From Alloalcanivorax marinus (GTDB lineage Bacteria > Pseudomonadota > Gammaproteobacteria > Pseudomonadales > Alcanivoracaceae): 64,000 nt of DNA. Below are positions 3,743 to 64,000 of this stretch, piece after piece. The notes under the pieces were generated by a model that searched no databases, was not told the origin of the DNA, and saw only the letters and a program-made list of their open reading frames with translations. Each line of letters starts with the position of its first letter. The stretch's first letter is position 1. A program made the translations under genes and the position numbers. Location of the stretch: assembly GCF_016785095.1 (NCBI RefSeq), contig NZ_JAEKJB010000010.1, positions 248,001 through 312,000 of the forward strand, written 5' to 3'.

Positions 3743-4798
3743 ATGAAAAGAATCGCCAAACTGACGGTGCTGGCCGTCCTGATCATCGCCACCGGAGCGC
3801 GCGCGGCCACGCCCAACCCCTTCGACTGGCAGTCGGTGCCCAAGAAGGACGACCAGATTACCATGCGCCTGGCCCACTCCCTGAACATGGAGTGGAGTTC
3901 CCAGACCGTGGCGTTGAAGCGCTTCGCCGAGCTGGTCGCCATCTACACCGACAACCGCATCCGCCCGGTGATCTTCCCCGGATCGCAACTGGGCAGTGAA
4001 AAGGAAATGCTGCAGCAGGCCCGCCAAGGCGTGATCCAGGTCACCATCCCGGCCACCAACAACATGGCCCAGGTCGCGCCCAGCCTGAACGTTCTGCTGT
4101 TGCCCTACCTGACGCAAAGCACCGAAGAGTCCAATTACCTGCTCGATCACATCACGCCGATCCTGCAACCCCGCGTCATCGAGGAGGCCGGAGTGCGCAT
4201 CATCGGCTGGGAAAATACCGGCTGGCGGCATTTCTTTTACAACGCGCCCGAGCCGATTCAAAAGCCCGCGGATCTGGCGCCGCTGAAAATGCGCGTGCCG
4301 CCCAACGCCATCATGCTCGGCACCTACAAATCCTGGGATGCCTCGCCGGCGCCGATTGCCTGGAACGAGCTCTACAGTGCCTTGCAGCAAGGCGTGGTGG
4401 AAGGCGGCGACAGCCCGGTGAGCGACATCATCGGCATGAAATTCGACGAAGTGATCGGCCGCATCAGCCGCCTGCACTACACCATTCTCACCCACCCCAT
4501 CGTGGTCTCCGAGCGCTGGTTCCAGGATCTGGATCCGGACCTGCGCGAGGCGGTGCTGCGCGCCGGCCGGGAAACCACCGAATACGTGCGCTGGTGGCAG
4601 CCGCTGGATGAGGCCCGTTGGTGGAAACAGGCCGAGGAAGCCGGCGTGCGGATCAGCGACATCGAGGATGAGACCCCGTGGCTCAAGGAAGCCCGCGCTG
4701 CCTGGCCGAACTATTACCCATTGATCGGCAAGGACGGCGAGGCCCTCACCGAGAAGGCCATGAGCATCCTCGAAGACTACAAAGCGACTCAACAATAA
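3743..4798 (+). CDS. dctP: TRAP transporter substrate-binding protein (DctP family)
   Basis: A 351-residue periplasmic solute receptor for a TRAP transporter. The signal peptide is MKRIAKLTVLAVLIIATGARA with cleavage before ATPNPF. The mature part has the family's conserved arginine region (LKMRVPPN) that normally grips a substrate carboxylate, and the downstream ELYSALQQGVVEGGD motif. The start at 3743 is chosen over an in-frame ATG at 3701 because the signal peptide begins there and 3701 lies inside a stem-loop with no ribosome site. It is first of three TRAP genes following the dehydrogenase pair, suggesting uptake of an organic acid or related compound handled by them. Confidence 0.9.
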   Translation: MKRIAKLTVLAVLIIATGARAATPNPFDWQSVPKKDDQITMRLAHSLNMEWSSQTVALKRFAELVAIYTDNRIRPVIFPGSQLGSEKEMLQQARQGVIQVTIPATNNMAQVAPSLNVLLLPYLTQSTEESNYLLDHITPILQPRVIEEAGVRIIGWENTGWRHFFYNAPEPIQKPADLAPLKMRVPPNAIMLGTYKSWDASPAPIAWNELYSALQQGVVEGGDSPVSDIIGMKFDEVIGRISRLHYTILTHPIVVSERWFQDLDPDLREAVLRAGRETTEYVRWWQPLDEARWWKQAEEAGVRISDIEDETPWLKEARAAWPNYYPLIGKDGEALTEKAMSILEDYKATQQ

Positions 4799-40125: not shown

Positions 40126-41671
<1,546 letters not shown>

Positions 41672-41699
41672 GGTCGCTCCTTACAATACTGAACGGCGA

Positions 41700-41729
41700 A
41701 TGATACGCGAGGGCCGGCGGGCTTGTCAT
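41700..41729 (-). promoter_or_regulatory. Sigma70 promoter candidate for ibaG-murA-hisGDC
   Basis: On the minus strand ATGACA (41729-41724), an 18-base spacer and TATCAT (41705-41700), each one base off consensus, end 28 bases before the ibaG start. A GC hairpin (41732-41753: GGGGCCG/CGGCCCC) lies just upstream, between it and mlaC, and may end mlaC transcription. Confidence 0.5.
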
Positions 41730-41765
41730 GCGGGGCCGACGGTGGCCGGCCCCGGGAACGGGGCG

Positions 41766-42422
41766 TTACTGGCCGCCTTGGGGAGCGCCTTCCACGTTCA
41801 CTTTTTCTTCCACGTCGGCGTTTTCCGCCGACCAGTTGTCGATGGCCTGGTCCATGTCGCCGTACTGCTGCATGGACTGGGCGAACTGCGCCTGATAGAC
41901 GGCGCGCAGATCCAGCCCGTTGACGAACACATTGATCACTTTCCAGTCATCACCACTCTGGAACAGCGTGAAGTAGACCGGGATCACCTTGCCGTCCTTG
42001 GTGGTGCCCTGCACGCGCACCCGAGCATAATTACCCTTGCGGTCTTCCTCGCGCAGCGGCAACACCTCGATCTTCTGCCCCTGGTACATGGTCACCCCGG
42101 AGGCATAGGTGTTGATCAGGCTGTTCTTGAACACGTCCAGGAAGCGGTATTTCTGTTCGCGGCTGGCGTCGTTGAAATAATCGCCCATCACCATCCGGGT
42201 GATGCGCTTGAAATCCACCAGTGGCACCAGTTCTTCACGCACCAGTTCACGGGCGTACTCCGGCTCCTGATTCAAGCGCTGGCGATTTTCGTCGATCAAG
42301 GTGGTCATGCGCTCCACCGTGTCCTGCACCAGCTCGCGGGGGTCCTGGGCCGCCTGCGCCAGGCCGGCCAGGCCCAGCAGACACAGCGCCAGAACGGCCG
42401 CGAAGCGTTGTTTCAAGGTCAT
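41766..42422 (-). CDS. mlaC: Phospholipid-binding periplasmic protein MlaC
   Basis: A 218-residue periplasmic carrier that shuttles phospholipids between outer and inner membranes. The signal peptide ends LAGLAQA before AQDPRELVQ; the MlaC core includes TRMVMGDYFNDAS, FLDVFKNSLINTYASG and DGKVIPVYFTLFQSGDDWKV. GGGAG precedes the start. Normally it is between mlaD and mlaB in mlaFEDCB; here neither neighbour is present: ibaG follows after 94 bases and kdsD is divergent upstream. Confidence 0.94.
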   Translation of the reverse strand: MTLKQRFAAVLALCLLGLAGLAQAAQDPRELVQDTVERMTTLIDENRQRLNQEPEYARELVREELVPLVDFKRITRMVMGDYFNDASREQKYRFLDVFKNSLINTYASGVTMYQGQKIEVLPLREEDRKGNYARVRVQGTTKDGKVIPVYFTLFQSGDDWKVINVFVNGLDLRAVYQAQFAQSMQQYGDMDQAIDNWSAENADVEEKVNVEGAPQGGQ

Positions 42423-42453
42423 ACGTCACTCCCTGTCGTTGTCGTGGGCTCCG

Positions 42454-42482
42454 GTTGTACGGTTTTCGCGCCGGAGTGTCCA
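42454..42482 (-). promoter_or_regulatory. Promoter candidate for mlaC
   Basis: On the minus strand TGGACA (42482-42477), a 17-base spacer and TACAAC (42459-42454), ending 32 bases before the mlaC start. It supports independent transcription of mlaC. The remainder of 42423-42698 holds a REP-like unit and no gene. Confidence 0.4.
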
Positions 42483-42560
42483 GGCGTTTACCGTTGGAGT
42501 GCGGTAGCCGTGGCCGGGTTCCGTTCGCGGTGATCGCGGCATGGGCGGGCATTCAACTTC

Positions 42561-42583
42561 GCGGGAGCGGTTTCGGCCGCGAT
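42561..42583. repeat. REP-like element between mlaC and kdsD
   Basis: A 23-base unit containing GGGAGCGGTTTCGGCCGCG followed by AT matches the layout of the REP unit at 12724 (GGAGCG..., short inner palindrome ending CGCGAT). Only a single unpaired copy is present. Confidence 0.55.
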
Positions 42584-42664
42584 AGAAAGGACCAGCGTGG
42601 AACGCAGCCACCCCGGGAGAGGTCTGATCCCGGTCGAGGGCAGTCATTGGCCCGCCCGCCAGTG

Positions 42665-42670
42665 TATAAT
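42665..42670 (+). promoter_or_regulatory. -10 element upstream of kdsD
   Basis: A perfect TATAAT lies 29 bases before the kdsD start. No good -35 was found at 16-18 bases upstream (AGTCAT at 17), so an activator or the upstream TG may matter. Confidence 0.5.
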
Positions 42671-42698
42671 CGCCGCCAGCGAGGAGACACGAGACACC

Positions 42699-43667
42699 AT
42701 GAGCAACAAGCATATCGCCACCGCCCGCCGTGTACTGGACGAGGAAGCCCGCGCCGTGGCGGCGCTGAGTGAGCGCGTCAGCGACGATTTCGAACGGGCC
42801 TGCGACCGCATTCTCCAATGCCGGGGCCGGGTGATCGTCACCGGCATGGGCAAAAGCGGCCATATTGGCAGCAAGGTGGCCGCCACCCTGGCCAGCACCG
42901 GCACCCCCGCCTTCTTCGTGCACCCCGGCGAAGCCTCCCACGGCGATCTGGGCATGATCACCAGCGACGACGTGGTGCTGGCGCTGTCCAATTCCGGCGA
43001 GACCGGCGAGATTCTCACCATTATCCCGGTGATCAAACGCAAGGGCAGCGGCCTGATCAGCATGACCGGCCGACCGGAATCATCCCTGGCGCGGCTCTCC
43101 GACGTTCACCTGGACGTGGCCGTGGAAGAGGAAGCCTGCCCGCACAACCTGGCGCCCACCTCATCCACCACCGCCACCCTGGCCATGGGCGACGCCCTGG
43201 CCATCGCCCTGCTGGAGGCGCGCGGCTTCACCGCCGAGGACTTCGCCCTCAGCCACCCGGGCGGCAGCCTGGGCCGGCGGCTTCTGCTCAAGGTCGACGA
43301 CATCATGCATACCGAGGAACGCCTGCCCCGGGTACACCGCGACGCGGGCTTGTCCGAGGCGCTGCTGGAAATGACCCGCAAGGGGCTCGGCATGACCACC
43401 GTGGTCGACGACGCCGGCCTGCTGGTGGGGCTGTTCACCGACGGCGACCTGCGCCGCACCCTGGAAAAGGGCCTGGACATCCGCCAGGCGGGCATCGCCG
43501 AGGTAATGTCCACCCACCCGGTAACCATGGCGCCGGGCCAGCTCGCCGCCGAGGCGCTGCAGATCATGGAAACCCGCAAGATCAACGGCCTGATCGTCTG
43601 TGATGCCGAGCGCCGTCCGCTGGGCGCGCTCAACACCCAGGACCTGCTGCGCGCCGGGGTAATGTAA
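42699..43667 (+). CDS. kdsD: Arabinose-5-phosphate isomerase KdsD
   Basis: A 322-residue isomerase converting ribulose-5-P to arabinose-5-P for Kdo synthesis. An N-terminal SIS domain (GRVIVTGMGKSGHIGSKVAA, HPGEASHGDLGMI, SNSGETGEI) is followed by two CBS domains (from about 205), and ALSHPGGSLGRRLL joins them. It heads a cluster of lipopolysaccharide genes. The stop overlaps the kdsC start (TAATG). Confidence 0.96.
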   Translation: MSNKHIATARRVLDEEARAVAALSERVSDDFERACDRILQCRGRVIVTGMGKSGHIGSKVAATLASTGTPAFFVHPGEASHGDLGMITSDDVVLALSNSGETGEILTIIPVIKRKGSGLISMTGRPESSLARLSDVHLDVAVEEEACPHNLAPTSSTTATLAMGDALAIALLEARGFTAEDFALSHPGGSLGRRLLLKVDDIMHTEERLPRVHRDAGLSEALLEMTRKGLGMTTVVDDAGLLVGLFTDGDLRRTLEKGLDIRQAGIAEVMSTHPVTMAPGQLAAEALQIMETRKINGLIVCDAERRPLGALNTQDLLRAGVM

Positions 43668-59468: not shown

Positions 59469-60303
59469 CGGGACCGCTCACTTGGAATCGTTGATGGGTA
59501 TGAACCGGAAGGCCGGAGCGTACTGTCTTGAGCACCGCCGGGTCCACCGGGCCGAGCACCACGCCAGGGCCGTCACCGCCCTCGGCCACCACCCGGCCCC
59601 AAGGGTCCACCAGCAGGGAATGACCGTAACTGGTGCGCTGCGTGCTGTGCGCGCCGCACTGGTTGGCGCCCAGCACGTAGCAGCCGTTCTGGATCGCGGC
59701 GGCCCGCAGCAGCACCCGCCAGTGGGCCGCGCCGGTGGTGGCGGTGAACGCACTGGGGTAAACGATCAGATCGGCACCGGCGTCCGCCAGGGCGCGGGCA
59801 TGGAGGGGAAAGCGCAGGTCGTAGCAGATCGCCAGGCCCAGGCGCAGGCCACCGGCCTCCGCCACCACCACCTGGTCACCGGCTTCAAACACGTCGGATT
59901 CCCGATAGCGGCCCTGGGCATCGGCCACGTCGGCGTCGAACAGGTGCAGCTTGTCGTAGCGCGCCGCCACCGCGCCGTCCGGGCCGGTGAGCACCGCCCG
60001 GGTGCGTACCCGGGGCGCCGGCACGGCGCTGCCGTCCGGTCGGGTCAGAGCCGGCAGGCTGCCCCCCAGAACCCACAGGCCGAGGGCTCGGGAACGCTCG
60101 CCGAGCCATTGGCATAGCGCCTCGTGGCGTTCCGCCAGTTGCCGGTAGTCGACGCCATAACCGGCGAAATTCTCCGGCAGCACCGCCAGGGTGGCGCCGC
60201 CCTCGGCGGCACGCTCCAGGCCATCGGCGGCCGCCGTCAGGTTGGCGTCGATGTCGGTGCCGCTGGTCATTTGCACGGCGGCCACGGTGATCGGGTTACT
60301 CAA
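59458..60303 (-). CDS. Carbon-nitrogen hydrolase (Nit1/deaminated-glutathione amidase type)
   Basis: A 281-residue nitrilase-superfamily amidase. The catalytic triad is E44 (LPENF), K118 (YDKLHLFD) and C160 (ICYDLRFP). Homologues at this place hydrolyse deaminated glutathione as metabolite repair. Overlaps yhdP and tldD by a few bases at either end. Confidence 0.92.
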
Positions 60304-63300
60304 GGAAGCCCTCCGTCTCCTTGACCTTGGGCTCGCCCCAGGGCCCGGAGACCTGGTATTTCATGGTGGTCGTTTTATCCAGCTTATCACCCCAGAGCCG
60401 CTCCACCACAAAGATACCGGCGCACACCGCCGGTCCGGCCAGGCAACCAGCGTACAGGTTACTGGACAACGGCAGGGTCATGCCCACCTCCAGGTCCAGG
60501 GTGTGTTTGGCCAGTTGCGCCTCGCCGTTCACCTCGAAGGCCGCCGAAGGAGACTCGATGGCCAGTTCACGAGCGGTGAGCACCGGTCCATCGAAGCGGA
60601 ATTCGCCGTCGATACCATCACAGGCCAGTCCCTGCTGGTACACATCGGAGAAATCCAGGCGCAGGCGGCGCTGAATATTCGCCAGGTTGACCACCCCGAG
60701 CAGCCGCAGCAGGGAAGTCCGCCCCTCCGGGTCCGGCAGCCGGCATTCGCCGATATCCAGGGTGGCGGTGCCGTTCAAGGCCAGGTAATCGGGCTTCAGA
60801 GGCCAGTCGTTCCAGGCCAGATCCAGGGTCGCCCGGGCGTCCTCGGTTTCCACCAGCGGCGGCAAGTCCAGGGCGGAGAAAGCGGCCTTGAGGTCATCGG
60901 ACCCCAGAGTGCCCTGATAGCGGCTGTGCTGGCTGCCCTCGCCGTCCTCGGTCCAGGTGAGCCGGCCATCCACGTTGATGTGGTTCCACTGGCCGCGCAG
61001 GGCGTCCACCCGCACGCCGCCGTCCACCGGGCGCAGCCGTCCGGACCAGGCTCCCAGGGCCTGGCCCCCGAGGCGCAGATCATGCAGTTCCACATCCATG
61101 ATCGGTACCCTAGTCGGTGACAACGGTGGCTTGCCATCACCATCACCCTGGTCGCCGCCGCCCCCGAGGGGGCTGTCCGGCAGCCGCAGCCGGTTCACCG
61201 TCAGTGACAGGGGCGTATCGCCCCGGGCCTGGTACCCTTCCGGCAGGCGCACGGTGCCGGCCACCGACGGACTGGCCAGACCCAGCTCCCAATCGCGGCC
61301 GCGTGGGGCGGCGCTAAAACGGGCGGAGGACAGTTCGGTACCGAACAGGTCGAGCCGGTCGATGGACAGCGACACCCGGTTGATCAGACTCCGCGCGTCG
61401 GCGCCGCCCTCACCGCCGCTGCCGTTCTGGCCGGCGCCGGCGGGCGTCAGGCCAGAGACGAAATCCAGCCAGCTGGCGGCGTCGGCACGGGCCACCCGGC
61501 CTTCGATGGTCAACCCGTGGGCCGGCATTTCGGGCAGCTCGCCGCCGCCCAGCCGCACCGCCCCGGCCAGGCTGTCGCCCAGGCGGAATCGGGCCTCGCC
61601 GATCTGGCCGTAGAAAACGGAGACCTGATTGGCGCCGCTGCGCTGACGCCATACCAGGCGACTGGTGCGTGCCTGGCTGGCCGCCTTGCCAAGAGGGGCC
61701 GGGGCGTCCACCTTCACGCCTTCCAGGGTGGAACGTCCCTCCAGACGGAAGGCATTGCCGCCCCAGGGCATGGCCAGGTCCAGTTCCAGGGGCAAGGTGC
61801 CCGAGGCTGGCGCCATCCAGTCCGCATCCAACCAGTCACGCAGGCGCTCCACCGCCACCTTGCCGGTGAGCTGCATCTGGCTGTCCGGCCCCCGGGTCAA
61901 CCAGCTCCCTTGGAAGCGGGCGCCGAGGGCGCGGCCTTCCAGGGTACGCATGTTGATGCCGCGCTTAAGGTGGAAATACACCGGTGCGCTCACGTCGGTC
62001 AGGCTCAGGTTGAGAGGTTCGTTGCGCAGTGTCACCTGGTCGCCGCGACCGTCCACGATCACCATCGGCTGGCGGGACTTACCACCCAGCGGCATATCCA
62101 GGAGCAGGTGCCCGCCCACGGTGCCGTCCCGGAAGCGCCAGTCCAGCAGGCCGGCGGGCAGCCGCTGGGCCAGCGGTGTGTCATGGAACAGGCGGTCCAG
62201 ATCCGTGGCCGGGCCGTCCAGCCGGCCCTGGACCAGAATGTGGCGCTGGCCGGGGTCCGTCACCTCGGGCAGATCCACGCTCACGCCGCGCAGTTTGGTA
62301 TTGAACAATTGCCCCTGGCTGACGGTGCCGGTGACGCGCCGGCCATCGATCAGCACATCGGCGTCAACCCCGGTGGCCGCCGGCCAGTCCGGCAGGAAGG
62401 ACAACACCACGTCACGGGCCTGGAAGCGCATTTGGAAGGTGCGGTCCTGCTGACGGTCCGGGTCGATCTTCACCGGTCCCTGATACAGGAACCGGCCATG
62501 ATCCAGGTGGCCGCCCTGGAAAGCCTGGGCCAGCCAGTCACCGAGCGGGTCCTTGAGCTTTTCCATGGGGATGTAGTGGGCGGCACGGGCACCGTTGCCA
62601 TCGAAGACATCCGCCAGCAGGCGCAGTTCCGGCACCGGATAGGCGGCGCCACCGTCCACGCGCAGCATGGCCAGCCCGCGGGCGTCGGCGTTGGCGGCGC
62701 GTAACACGCCGCTTTCCACCCACCAGTGGTCCGCCTCGCTGCGCCAGCGCAGCGGGCCGTTAAAGGCCGCGCTCAGCGGGTGGCCATAGAGACGCGGCAC
62801 GGTCAGTTGCAAGGGCTCGCCATCGAGCCGGGCCACGCCGCCGTCCGGGGTCCCCGCCAACCAGCCGGTCAGGCCGCTGATGCCGGGCACCCGGTCGAGG
62901 GCGTCACTGGCCAGCCCGGCGAAACGGGCCTGCAGGTGCGCCACCCGGCCATCCACGCCGTCCAGATAGACCGCCTCCAGCACCCCCCGGGGTTCGTGTT
63001 CGCGCAACCGGTCACGCACCGTATCCAGGCCTTCCGGCAACGCGAACGGCCATTCGGCCAGTTGCCGGGTAAGCGCGTGAATGGCCAAGTCGTCGCCCTT
63101 GAAACGCCAATGGTACTGATCGTCCTGGCGCCGCCAGCGCAGCGCTACCGGGCCCGGCGATACCGCGCCGGCGGGGGTCTCGCCGGTCAGGGAGGTCACC
63201 GACAACTGGTTCTCGCCGTCGCCGTCCCCGTCCCGCCGCCACTGGGCGTCCAGTCGCAGGTCGCTGAGTGGCCATTGGCCATCGCCGTCGGTGAGGGTGG

Positions 63301-64000
63301 CTTCCGGTGCCGTCAACCGCACCTGTCCGGCTCGGGGCGCGCCGTTCTCGATCCGGCCCCAGGCGCGCACCTGCCCGTTCAGCGCCGCCAGATCCAGCGG
63401 CCAGTCCCGTGCCTCGGGCAGCCATTCCTGCAAACGCTCACCGTGCACGTCGAGATAGCCACGGGCATTCAGCTCCGCCAGGGAAAGCGGGTCGCCGTCC
63501 ACCAGCAGCCGGGCGTCCACGGAGAACGGCCGGTCTCTGGCTTCGACCCGCGCCGACAGCGCGTGCTCGCCGCCCTCGTTGACCATCGCCAGGGTCAGGG
63601 AGGAGGCCGCCAGAGGCGGCAGGCCGGGCCAGTCCAGGGAGAAACGGGCGTCCTCGACCAGAATACGATCCTGCCGGTAAAGGGTGCGCAGGCTGTCCGC
63701 CAGGTTATCGTCACCGTCACGGTGCAGCGCCTCGAAACCACGCAGCCGGATGCCACCGTCCGGGTCGCGGACCAGATGCACATCGACGCCCTGAATGCGC
63801 AGTTCGCGCAGGTAGGGCTGGCGATGCCAGAGGGTGGCCAGCACATTGACGCTTACCGAAACCTGATCCAGGCGCAAAGAGGGTTCGCCATCGGCGTCCG
63901 GCAGGGTCAGGCCGCGCACCTGGAAACGGGGCGTGAGCCCGTCCATATCGCCGCTGAGCTGGTCGATGACAATGGGAAAACCGAGCCGTTGCTCGATCAG
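60296..64000 (-). CDS. yhdP: YhdP-family AsmA-like phospholipid transport protein (5' end cut by window)
   Basis: Open from the right edge (first visible codon at 64000, continuing LIEQRLGFPIVIDQL in frame) to the stop at 60296, giving 1234 residues without the N-terminal anchor. It has the DUF3971/AsmA-like repeating beta architecture and a C-terminal AsmA_2 region (GTATLDIGECRLPDP, LLRLLGVVNLANIQRRL, LDFSDVY). In E. coli YhdP moves phospholipids to the outer membrane. First gene of the visible yhdP-nit-tldD unit. Confidence 0.93.
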   Translation of the reverse strand: MIEQRLGFPIVIDQLSGDMDGLTPRFQVRGLTLPDADGEPSLRLDQVSVSVNVLATLWHRQPYLRELRIQGVDVHLVRDPDGGIRLRGFEALHRDGDDNLADSLRTLYRQDRILVEDARFSLDWPGLPPLAASSLTLAMVNEGGEHALSARVEARDRPFSVDARLLVDGDPLSLAELNARGYLDVHGERLQEWLPEARDWPLDLAALNGQVRAWGRIENGAPRAGQVRLTAPEATLTDGDGQWPLSDLRLDAQWRRDGDGDGENQLSVTSLTGETPAGAVSPGPVALRWRRQDDQYHWRFKGDDLAIHALTRQLAEWPFALPEGLDTVRDRLREHEPRGVLEAVYLDGVDGRVAHLQARFAGLASDALDRVPGISGLTGWLAGTPDGGVARLDGEPLQLTVPRLYGHPLSAAFNGPLRWRSEADHWWVESGVLRAANADARGLAMLRVDGGAAYPVPELRLLADVFDGNGARAAHYIPMEKLKDPLGDWLAQAFQGGHLDHGRFLYQGPVKIDPDRQQDRTFQMRFQARDVVLSFLPDWPAATGVDADVLIDGRRVTGTVSQGQLFNTKLRGVSVDLPEVTDPGQRHILVQGRLDGPATDLDRLFHDTPLAQRLPAGLLDWRFRDGTVGGHLLLDMPLGGKSRQPMVIVDGRGDQVTLRNEPLNLSLTDVSAPVYFHLKRGINMRTLEGRALGARFQGSWLTRGPDSQMQLTGKVAVERLRDWLDADWMAPASGTLPLELDLAMPWGGNAFRLEGRSTLEGVKVDAPAPLGKAASQARTSRLVWRQRSGANQVSVFYGQIGEARFRLGDSLAGAVRLGGGELPEMPAHGLTIEGRVARADAASWLDFVSGLTPAGAGQNGSGGEGGADARSLINRVSLSIDRLDLFGTELSSARFSAAPRGRDWELGLASPSVAGTVRLPEGYQARGDTPLSLTVNRLRLPDSPLGGGGDQGDGDGKPPLSPTRVPIMDVELHDLRLGGQALGAWSGRLRPVDGGVRVDALRGQWNHINVDGRLTWTEDGEGSQHSRYQGTLGSDDLKAAFSALDLPPLVETEDARATLDLAWNDWPLKPDYLALNGTATLDIGECRLPDPEGRTSLLRLLGVVNLANIQRRLRLDFSDVYQQGLACDGIDGEFRFDGPVLTARELAIESPSAAFEVNGEAQLAKHTLDLEVGMTLPLSSNLYAGCLAGPAVCAGIFVVERLWGDKLDKTTTMKYQVSGPWGEPKVKETEGFLE

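Follow-up and report, generated by a model that had tools for sequence, protein, structure and literature searches.

In the window analysed here, the whole 64,000-nucleotide stretch of Alloalcanivorax marinus DNA, an mlaC gene stands between the conserved flanks ibaG-murA and kdsD, and the transporter genes that surround it in E. coli are missing (Table 1). The E. coli locus, used as a control, reads murA-ibaG-mlaBCDEF, divergent from yrbG-kdsD-kdsC-lptCAB; compared with this order, mlaB, mlaD, mlaE and mlaF as well as yrbG are absent at the window locus, and profile searches identify the neighbours of mlaC as BolA/IbaG, KdsD, KdsC, LptC, LptA and LptB. Searches by tblastn gave no match to mlaB, mlaD or mlaE at E 0.01 in the window region or in 44 loci of the same family, and the mlaF matches listed (14 of 35 per query) land on lptB in the window region and these family loci. 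An earlier, sequence-only reading of this DNA had described a carrier gene kept without its transporter genes, divergent from kdsD and separated from ibaG by 94 and from kdsD by 276 bases; the absence at the locus and the divergence are confirmed, and both distances are exact by coordinates, the kdsD ATG lying at 42699, 276 bases from mlaC.

Table 1. Features of the mlaC locus in the window, the YhdP gene of the same window, and the mlaFEDCB operon of two relatives.
Feature	Position	Strand	Evidence or remark
murA, conserved flank	40126..41391	-	translation read and position versus annotated E. coli; tblastn anchor in relatives
ibaG (BolA family), conserved flank	41417..41671	-	PF01722 8.9e-13
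mlaC-ibaG gap, 94 bases, too short for mlaB	41672..41765	.	gap lengths in linked versus non-linked loci
orphan mlaC (predicted Ttg2D-type periplasmic phospholipid carrier)	41766..42422	-	218 aa; PF05494, phmmer and structure matches
mlaC-kdsD gap, 276 bases, where E. coli has mlaFED and yrbG; no recognisable remnant	42423..42698	.
REP-like unit	42563..42585	+	1 match in window, chance mean 0.04
kdsD, conserved divergent flank	42699..43667	+	NF008141 1.3e-135 (under cut-off); TIGR00393 above cut-off
YhdP, candidate lipid acceptor	60296..63946	-	PF13116 4.5e-174
complete mlaFEDCB operon	L015:5997-9052 (G043) and L016 (G042)		beside efflux-pump-like pair

The same reading had proposed a promoter of its own for mlaC and had taken the REP-like unit in the mlaC-kdsD gap for a possible mark of a past deletion, and neither proposal held. 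No sigma-70-type promoter was detected in the 276-base gap by a consensus scan, whose single match (41729-41700) precedes ibaG. Since the gene loss is common to the family, whereas just 6 of the 44 other family loci carry such a unit (at most one mismatch) between mlaC and kdsD, a role of the unit as a marker of the loss is not supported. REP-like units of the GGAGCGGCTTCAGCCGCGA type occur in Alloalcanivorax at two loci of the genome under study (L011 and L013) and several times in G020, where they are paired (L058:208-328 and 4707-4760), with one pair inside the mlaC-kdsD gap.

The product of 41766-42422 is a predicted phospholipid carrier of the MlaC family. It matches the PF05494 domain at full length (7.5e-43, profile positions 1-165 of 166), and its translation begins with a signal-peptide-like N-terminus. 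Among solved structures, phmmer matched Pseudomonas Ttg2D (4fcz/5uwb, 1.6e-29; 6hsy, 3.8e-24), with E. coli MlaC as a weaker match (4.6e-12 at best). An AlphaFold model (mean pLDDT 73.5, built from only 3 close sequences) gave 12 Foldseek matches at E ≤ 0.001, named MlaC, toluene-tolerance or phospholipid-binding proteins and including the structures 5uwb, 6hsy, 5uwa and 8ojg; going by these names, all 12 matches of the predicted fold are of the MlaC type. Profile, sequence and fold matches thus agree on MlaC, and the prospect, raised by the sequence-only reading, that a profile search could place the gene in a different family did not materialize. The NCBIfam equivalog model for MlaC (NF011697) gave 73 bits, under its cut-off of 195, and the HpnM model 69 bits, likewise under its cut-off; E. 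coli MlaC clears the MlaC model with 447 bits. However, this cut-off says little here, because the MlaC of G230, a same-order control taken from an intact mla operon, fails it too, with 45 (MlaC) and 50 (HpnM) bits, both under cut-off. The orphan gene is under purifying selection: against ten congeners its dN/dS is 0.11-0.33, compared with 0.10-0.55 for lptC and lptA nearby and 0.03-0.16 for murA. According to the relevant part of PMC8035174, a Trp residue (W196 in P. aeruginosa Ttg2D) marks the MlaC proteins predicted to bind two diacyl lipids. This Trp is W197 in the window MlaC and is kept in 92 of the 93 aligned MlaC of the site, which suggests that the cargo of the window MlaC may be Pseudomonas-like.

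The genome assembly is 99.84% complete (4.18 Mb in 15 contigs), and profile searches of all of it returned one match for MlaC, two for MlaA and none for MlaE. A search of this kind had been proposed together with the idea that the carrier works with a distant Mla complex; since MlaE matches nowhere in so complete an assembly, that idea is refuted for this genome, and an assembly gap is an unlikely cause of the missing MlaE. The MCE domain search found only two Pqi-type proteins, one with three MCE domains following PqiA and one with two following a split PqiA, and no single-MCE MlaD protein. MlaF and MlaB, whose families (ABC ATPase and STAS) are too general for a genome-wide search, were looked for at the mlaC locus and not found there. 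In the second Pqi-type system (L011:6381-8341; C1, about 671380-673340), PqiA is divided over two genes and the MCE protein is short, with two domains only; MCE matches in ORFs of similar size (297-302 aa) are also present in G023, G002 and G016. The window gene is, in sum, a native MlaC of the Ttg2D type that has stayed at its site, the locus being without the MlaFEDB genes and the genome without MlaE.

The arrangement is shared by the family, in which Alloalcanivorax profundimaris (94%) and A. gelatiniphagus (90%) were the only two named relatives that the scan gave. Among its 46 genomes (8 genera), MlaC was found in all and MlaE in two, and the 44 MlaE-less genomes include single-contig assemblies such as G001, G004, G013, G019 and G034. 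No family MlaC contains an internal stop; the gene is split between contigs in G036 and cut by a contig end in G041. We fetched 44 family loci, one per genome, leaving out G036 and with the window standing for the genome under study: mlaC is divergent from kdsD in all 44, and ibaG is present as well in 42, the contigs of the other two ending first. In at least 10 of the 44, yrbG still lies between mlaC and kdsD, which equals the E. coli arrangement with mlaFED and mlaB taken out. Close relatives therefore do not keep mlaFEDB at this junction; had they kept it, the sequence-only reading would have suspected an assembly error. In G022, an opposite-strand gene (L073:3194-3874), which by its sequence we take to encode an HxlR-like regulator, is placed between mlaC and ibaG. 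The two MlaE-positive genomes, G042 and G043, belong to one genus (g7) and possess, in addition to the orphan mlaC, a complete mlaFEDCB operon elsewhere (Table 1); in G043, mlaE and mlaD were checked by search and the other gene names were read from translations. The second MlaC of g7 falls together with that of G315 of family f41 (ultrafast bootstrap 94), outside the clade of the family's own MlaC (99), and its placement within the family's own clade was rejected only weakly (AU p 0.033). On these grounds, the second operon was probably acquired later from another lineage.

For the wider distribution we used one sample of 293 genomes of the order, which we take to be that of Pseudomonas in GTDB, drawn evenly from a larger group and searched five times. 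Matches were obtained for MlaC in 273 genomes (272 over the cut-off), MlaA in 268, MlaE in 166, any MCE domain in 210 and YhdP in 282. With the counts for the 261 good-quality genomes (completeness ≥ 90%, contamination ≤ 5%) in brackets, MlaC, MlaA, MlaE and MCE occur together in 162 (149), MlaC and MlaA only in 59 (50), MlaC, MlaA and MCE in 43 (42), none of the four in 16 (14), MlaC only in 5 (4), MlaC, MlaE and MCE in 4 (1), MlaA only in 3 (1), and MlaA and MCE in 1 (0). MlaA is present in all 12 genomes of the window's own family within this sample. Thus, MlaA and MlaC are combined in the absence of MlaE in 92 of the 261 good-quality genomes, spread over 25 of the 43 families for which such genomes exist. 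Of these 92, 50 (from 19 families) gave no match to any MCE domain; they include four assemblies listed as single-contig (G092, G260, G279 and G281) and, from the own family, G035 and G040. Given these 50 genomes, an MCE partner is not generally required. The 111 good-quality MlaE-less genomes have both MlaA and MlaC (92), neither (14), MlaC only (4) or MlaA only (1). The co-occurrence of MlaA and MlaC gives a Fisher p of 2e-13 when relatedness is ignored. Counted in evolutionary events, however, the coupling is modest, because joint absence is concentrated in three families (f6, f36 and f40) and five genomes break the pairing: G054, G076, G166 and G171 match MlaC only, with the G171 protein scoring under the family cut-off, and G179 matches MlaA only. 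Seven good-quality genomes of f36, namely G116, G195, G215, G254, G273 and G311 (g64) and G235 (g101), show no match to MlaA, MlaC, MlaE, MCE or YhdP.

Outside the own family, we examined 47 MlaC neighbourhoods of MlaE-less genomes (L118-L164, one genome each). The same site recurs: mlaC adjoins murA-ibaG in 42 of the 47, with yrbG or kdsD divergent on the opposite side in 40 of these 42, and no match to mlaD, mlaE or mlaF at E 1e-5 was found in any of the 42. In one of the 42, that of G262, ibaG was undetected; in another, that of G139, 3.1 kb with a 1050 aa ORF separate ibaG and mlaC (L128:943-4095). The remaining five (G271, G113, G239, G061 and G119) have mlaC elsewhere or near a contig end. 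Gap lengths tell the same loci apart from those in which mlaC is linked to its transporter genes. The gap between mlaC and ibaG/murA was measured in 85 non-linked loci of family and order having mlaC and ibaG or murA, three of which belong to MlaE-positive genomes: its median is 123 bases and it exceeds 300 in 4, whereas 7 linked loci have 368-638 bases. Towards the opposite flank, 83 of the 85 show a yrbG or kdsD anchor, only one of them more than 700 bases away; where a linked locus has such an anchor (6 loci), the distance is 2253-2406 bases. The absence of mlaB rests mainly on gap length, since the E. coli MlaB query finds MlaB poorly even in linked loci. In the MlaE-positive G168, G073 and G238 the only MlaC is far from MlaE, and in all three mlaC is not at the ibaG site.

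As to the number of losses, the trees draw on just 7 linked loci from this site in the order and so sample only part of the MlaE-positive families. A four-gene tree of 61 rows implies 3 state changes, and the MlaC tree 5 if E. coli and the second g7 copy count as linked; a single clade of the 7 linked MlaC on the latter was not rejected (AU p 0.09). Because family f7 is nested inside the mlaFED clade of the four-gene tree (SH-aLRT 97), it looks like a separate loss of mlaFED. The variant of the Mla pathway without the transporter is real, family-wide and recurrent across the order; its carrier is an ordinary one, and what is unusual is the lack of the transporter. The sequence-only reading had mentioned neither the retained MlaA nor this spread beyond a single genome.

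In E. coli, the acidic tail of MlaA docks MlaC, as described in the relevant passages of PMC10245069 and PMC10719372. This tail is kept acidic in the proteins sampled. We compared the last 30 residues of 40 MlaA proteins chosen from the better matches of the order-wide search: the mean number of D/E is 10.2 in 9 genomes without MCE, 11.3 in 11 with MCE and no MlaE, and 9.5 in 20 with MlaE. The two MlaA copies of the genome under study (PF04333, 7.2e-69 and 9.4e-61) differ in this respect, that of L013 having an acidic tail with 9 D/E and that of L014 having 5 and no such tail. The tailless copy (L014:6127-6951; C1:851252) adjoins a gene pair whose translations read as two-component-like, and its partner may be a different one. 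We further mapped E. coli MlaC contacts onto the 93 MlaC of the site: L76, Y82, I130 and R153 of the cleft, R134, R147, N179 and R186 of the MlaD side, and K71 and R90 of the MlaA side. (The K84 named in PMC10719372 is Ser in the fetched E. coli MlaC, which has K at 83.) These residues do not separate orphan from linked MlaC, because most of them are absent from linked MlaC of the same order as well, the 7 linked controls departing from E. coli in about the way seen in the orphans.

Since genomes keep MlaC and MlaA and lack the inner-membrane ABC transporter, MlaC would hand its lipid to something else; that is, the orphan MlaC probably passes lipid to an acceptor other than the Mla transporter. 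We favour, with some reserve, the reading that MlaA and MlaC are a working half-pathway delivering lipid to a non-MCE acceptor. MlaA would take misplaced phospholipids out of the outer leaflet and then load MlaC, a step proposed to be spontaneous; in E. coli, MlaA passes phospholipid to MlaC, and spontaneous loading is a suggestion reported in the relevant part of PMC10245069. The loaded MlaC would then be emptied by an acceptor other than an MCE complex and without ATP hydrolysis by the Mla transporter. Possibly, and as a guess, this acceptor could be YhdP, TamB or another AsmA-like bridge, or the lipid could pass straight into the inner membrane. YhdP, which the sequence-only reading had named as a possible partner, is encoded by each of the 50 good-quality genomes that have MlaA and MlaC and no MCE; because it is near-universal (282 of the 293 genomes overall), this co-occurrence is no evidence for YhdP as the acceptor. 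Seven of the 11 f36 genomes are without YhdP, MlaA and MlaC, while YhdP persists in those f40 genomes that have neither MlaA nor MlaC. The broader proposal, that MlaA and MlaC form a self-standing, MCE-independent lipid relay with a non-MCE acceptor in a large part of the order, MlaFEDB not being the obligatory end point, seems to us evenly poised between right and wrong.

Other readings have to be weighed against the half-pathway. The orphan MlaC might deliver to a Pqi-type MCE system, either the PqiABC-like one at C1:501560 or the short two-MCE protein with the split PqiA at C1:671593. Both are present in the genome under study, and the MCE ring formed by MlaD is the known docking partner of MlaC; however, G035 and G040, members of the own family with orphan mlaC and MlaA, match no MCE domain, and the same is true, across the order, of 50 of the 261 good-quality genomes, all 50 having MlaA and MlaC. 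We therefore regard this route as unlikely: a Pqi-type acceptor is possible in the own genome only and, given those 50 genomes, is not the general answer. A comparably low probability is given to the view that MlaC and MlaA move lipids only within the outer membrane, or hand them to a lipase, with no phospholipid transfer between membranes. It would agree with the retention of MlaA and its tail, and with the fact that no inner-membrane partner of MlaC could be identified, yet no recurrent extra gene beside mlaC was seen in the 47 MlaE-less neighbourhoods, in which only ORFs with a query match were annotated, and this view is only weakly disfavoured.

The two remaining readings deny that a pathway without its transporter exists or that it works. 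It is very improbable that mlaFEDB is present and was missed, through an assembly gap or strong divergence of its proteins. The own genome is indeed a draft of 15 contigs, and a diverged transporter unseen by PF02405 and PF02470 is possible, but the MlaE search that gave no match here picks up both the control genomes and, within the family, G042 and G043, and single-contig relatives are likewise without MlaE. That the orphan gene is a decaying leftover without function, as the disappearance of its transporter could suggest, is hardly credible, given that it is found without internal stops in all 46 family genomes, evolves at a dN/dS within the range of lptA and lptC, and is kept in many families of the order.

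Lineages that retain only the outer half of the pathway, as postulated in the half-pathway reading, constitute a natural experiment on what drives retrograde lipid transport and on what else unloads MlaC. If the MCE-independent relay is true, the ATP-driven MlaFEDB would not be the obligatory end of the Mla route, and the Alloalcanivorax group and its relatives could reveal what receives lipid from MlaC. We found no account of MlaA-MlaC without MlaFEDB in the literature that our search covered, supplements and most subscription journals lying outside it. A survey of 1083 genomes (PMC10665443), which took three species from each order and used the same Pfam domains for MlaA, MlaC, MlaD and MlaE, puts its emphasis on MlaEFD lacking MlaA and MlaC and, in its relevant passages, leaves the reverse case undiscussed.

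The window system resembles the E. coli Mla system (MlaA-OmpC, MlaC, MlaFEDB) in the MlaC fold, the site between ibaG/murA and kdsD, and an MlaA with an acidic tail, but differs from it in that the genome gives no match to MlaE and has no single-MCE MlaD, neither mlaB nor mlaF was found at the locus, and some relatives match no MCE domain at all. Its carrier is closest to Pseudomonas Ttg2D, which provides the best structural matches (5uwb and 6hsy, 34 and 31% identity) and shares the subgroup Trp; Ttg2D, however, sits in the ttg2/mla operon, and the residue before the Trp is Asn in the window MlaC and not Gly. Partial Mla systems that work with parts missing have a precedent in Veillonella MlaEFD, which, as presented in the relevant passages of PMC10665443, is the mirror image of the window system: the transporter is kept, MlaA and MlaC are missing, and a long MlaD is proposed to bridge the envelope. 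Similarly, Brucella Mpc, described as a Mla-Pqi chimera in the relevant part of PMC12436622, illustrates a lineage-specific reshuffling of Mla and Pqi parts, but it differs from the window system in possessing an MlaEF-type transporter and in that no MlaC homologue is detectable.
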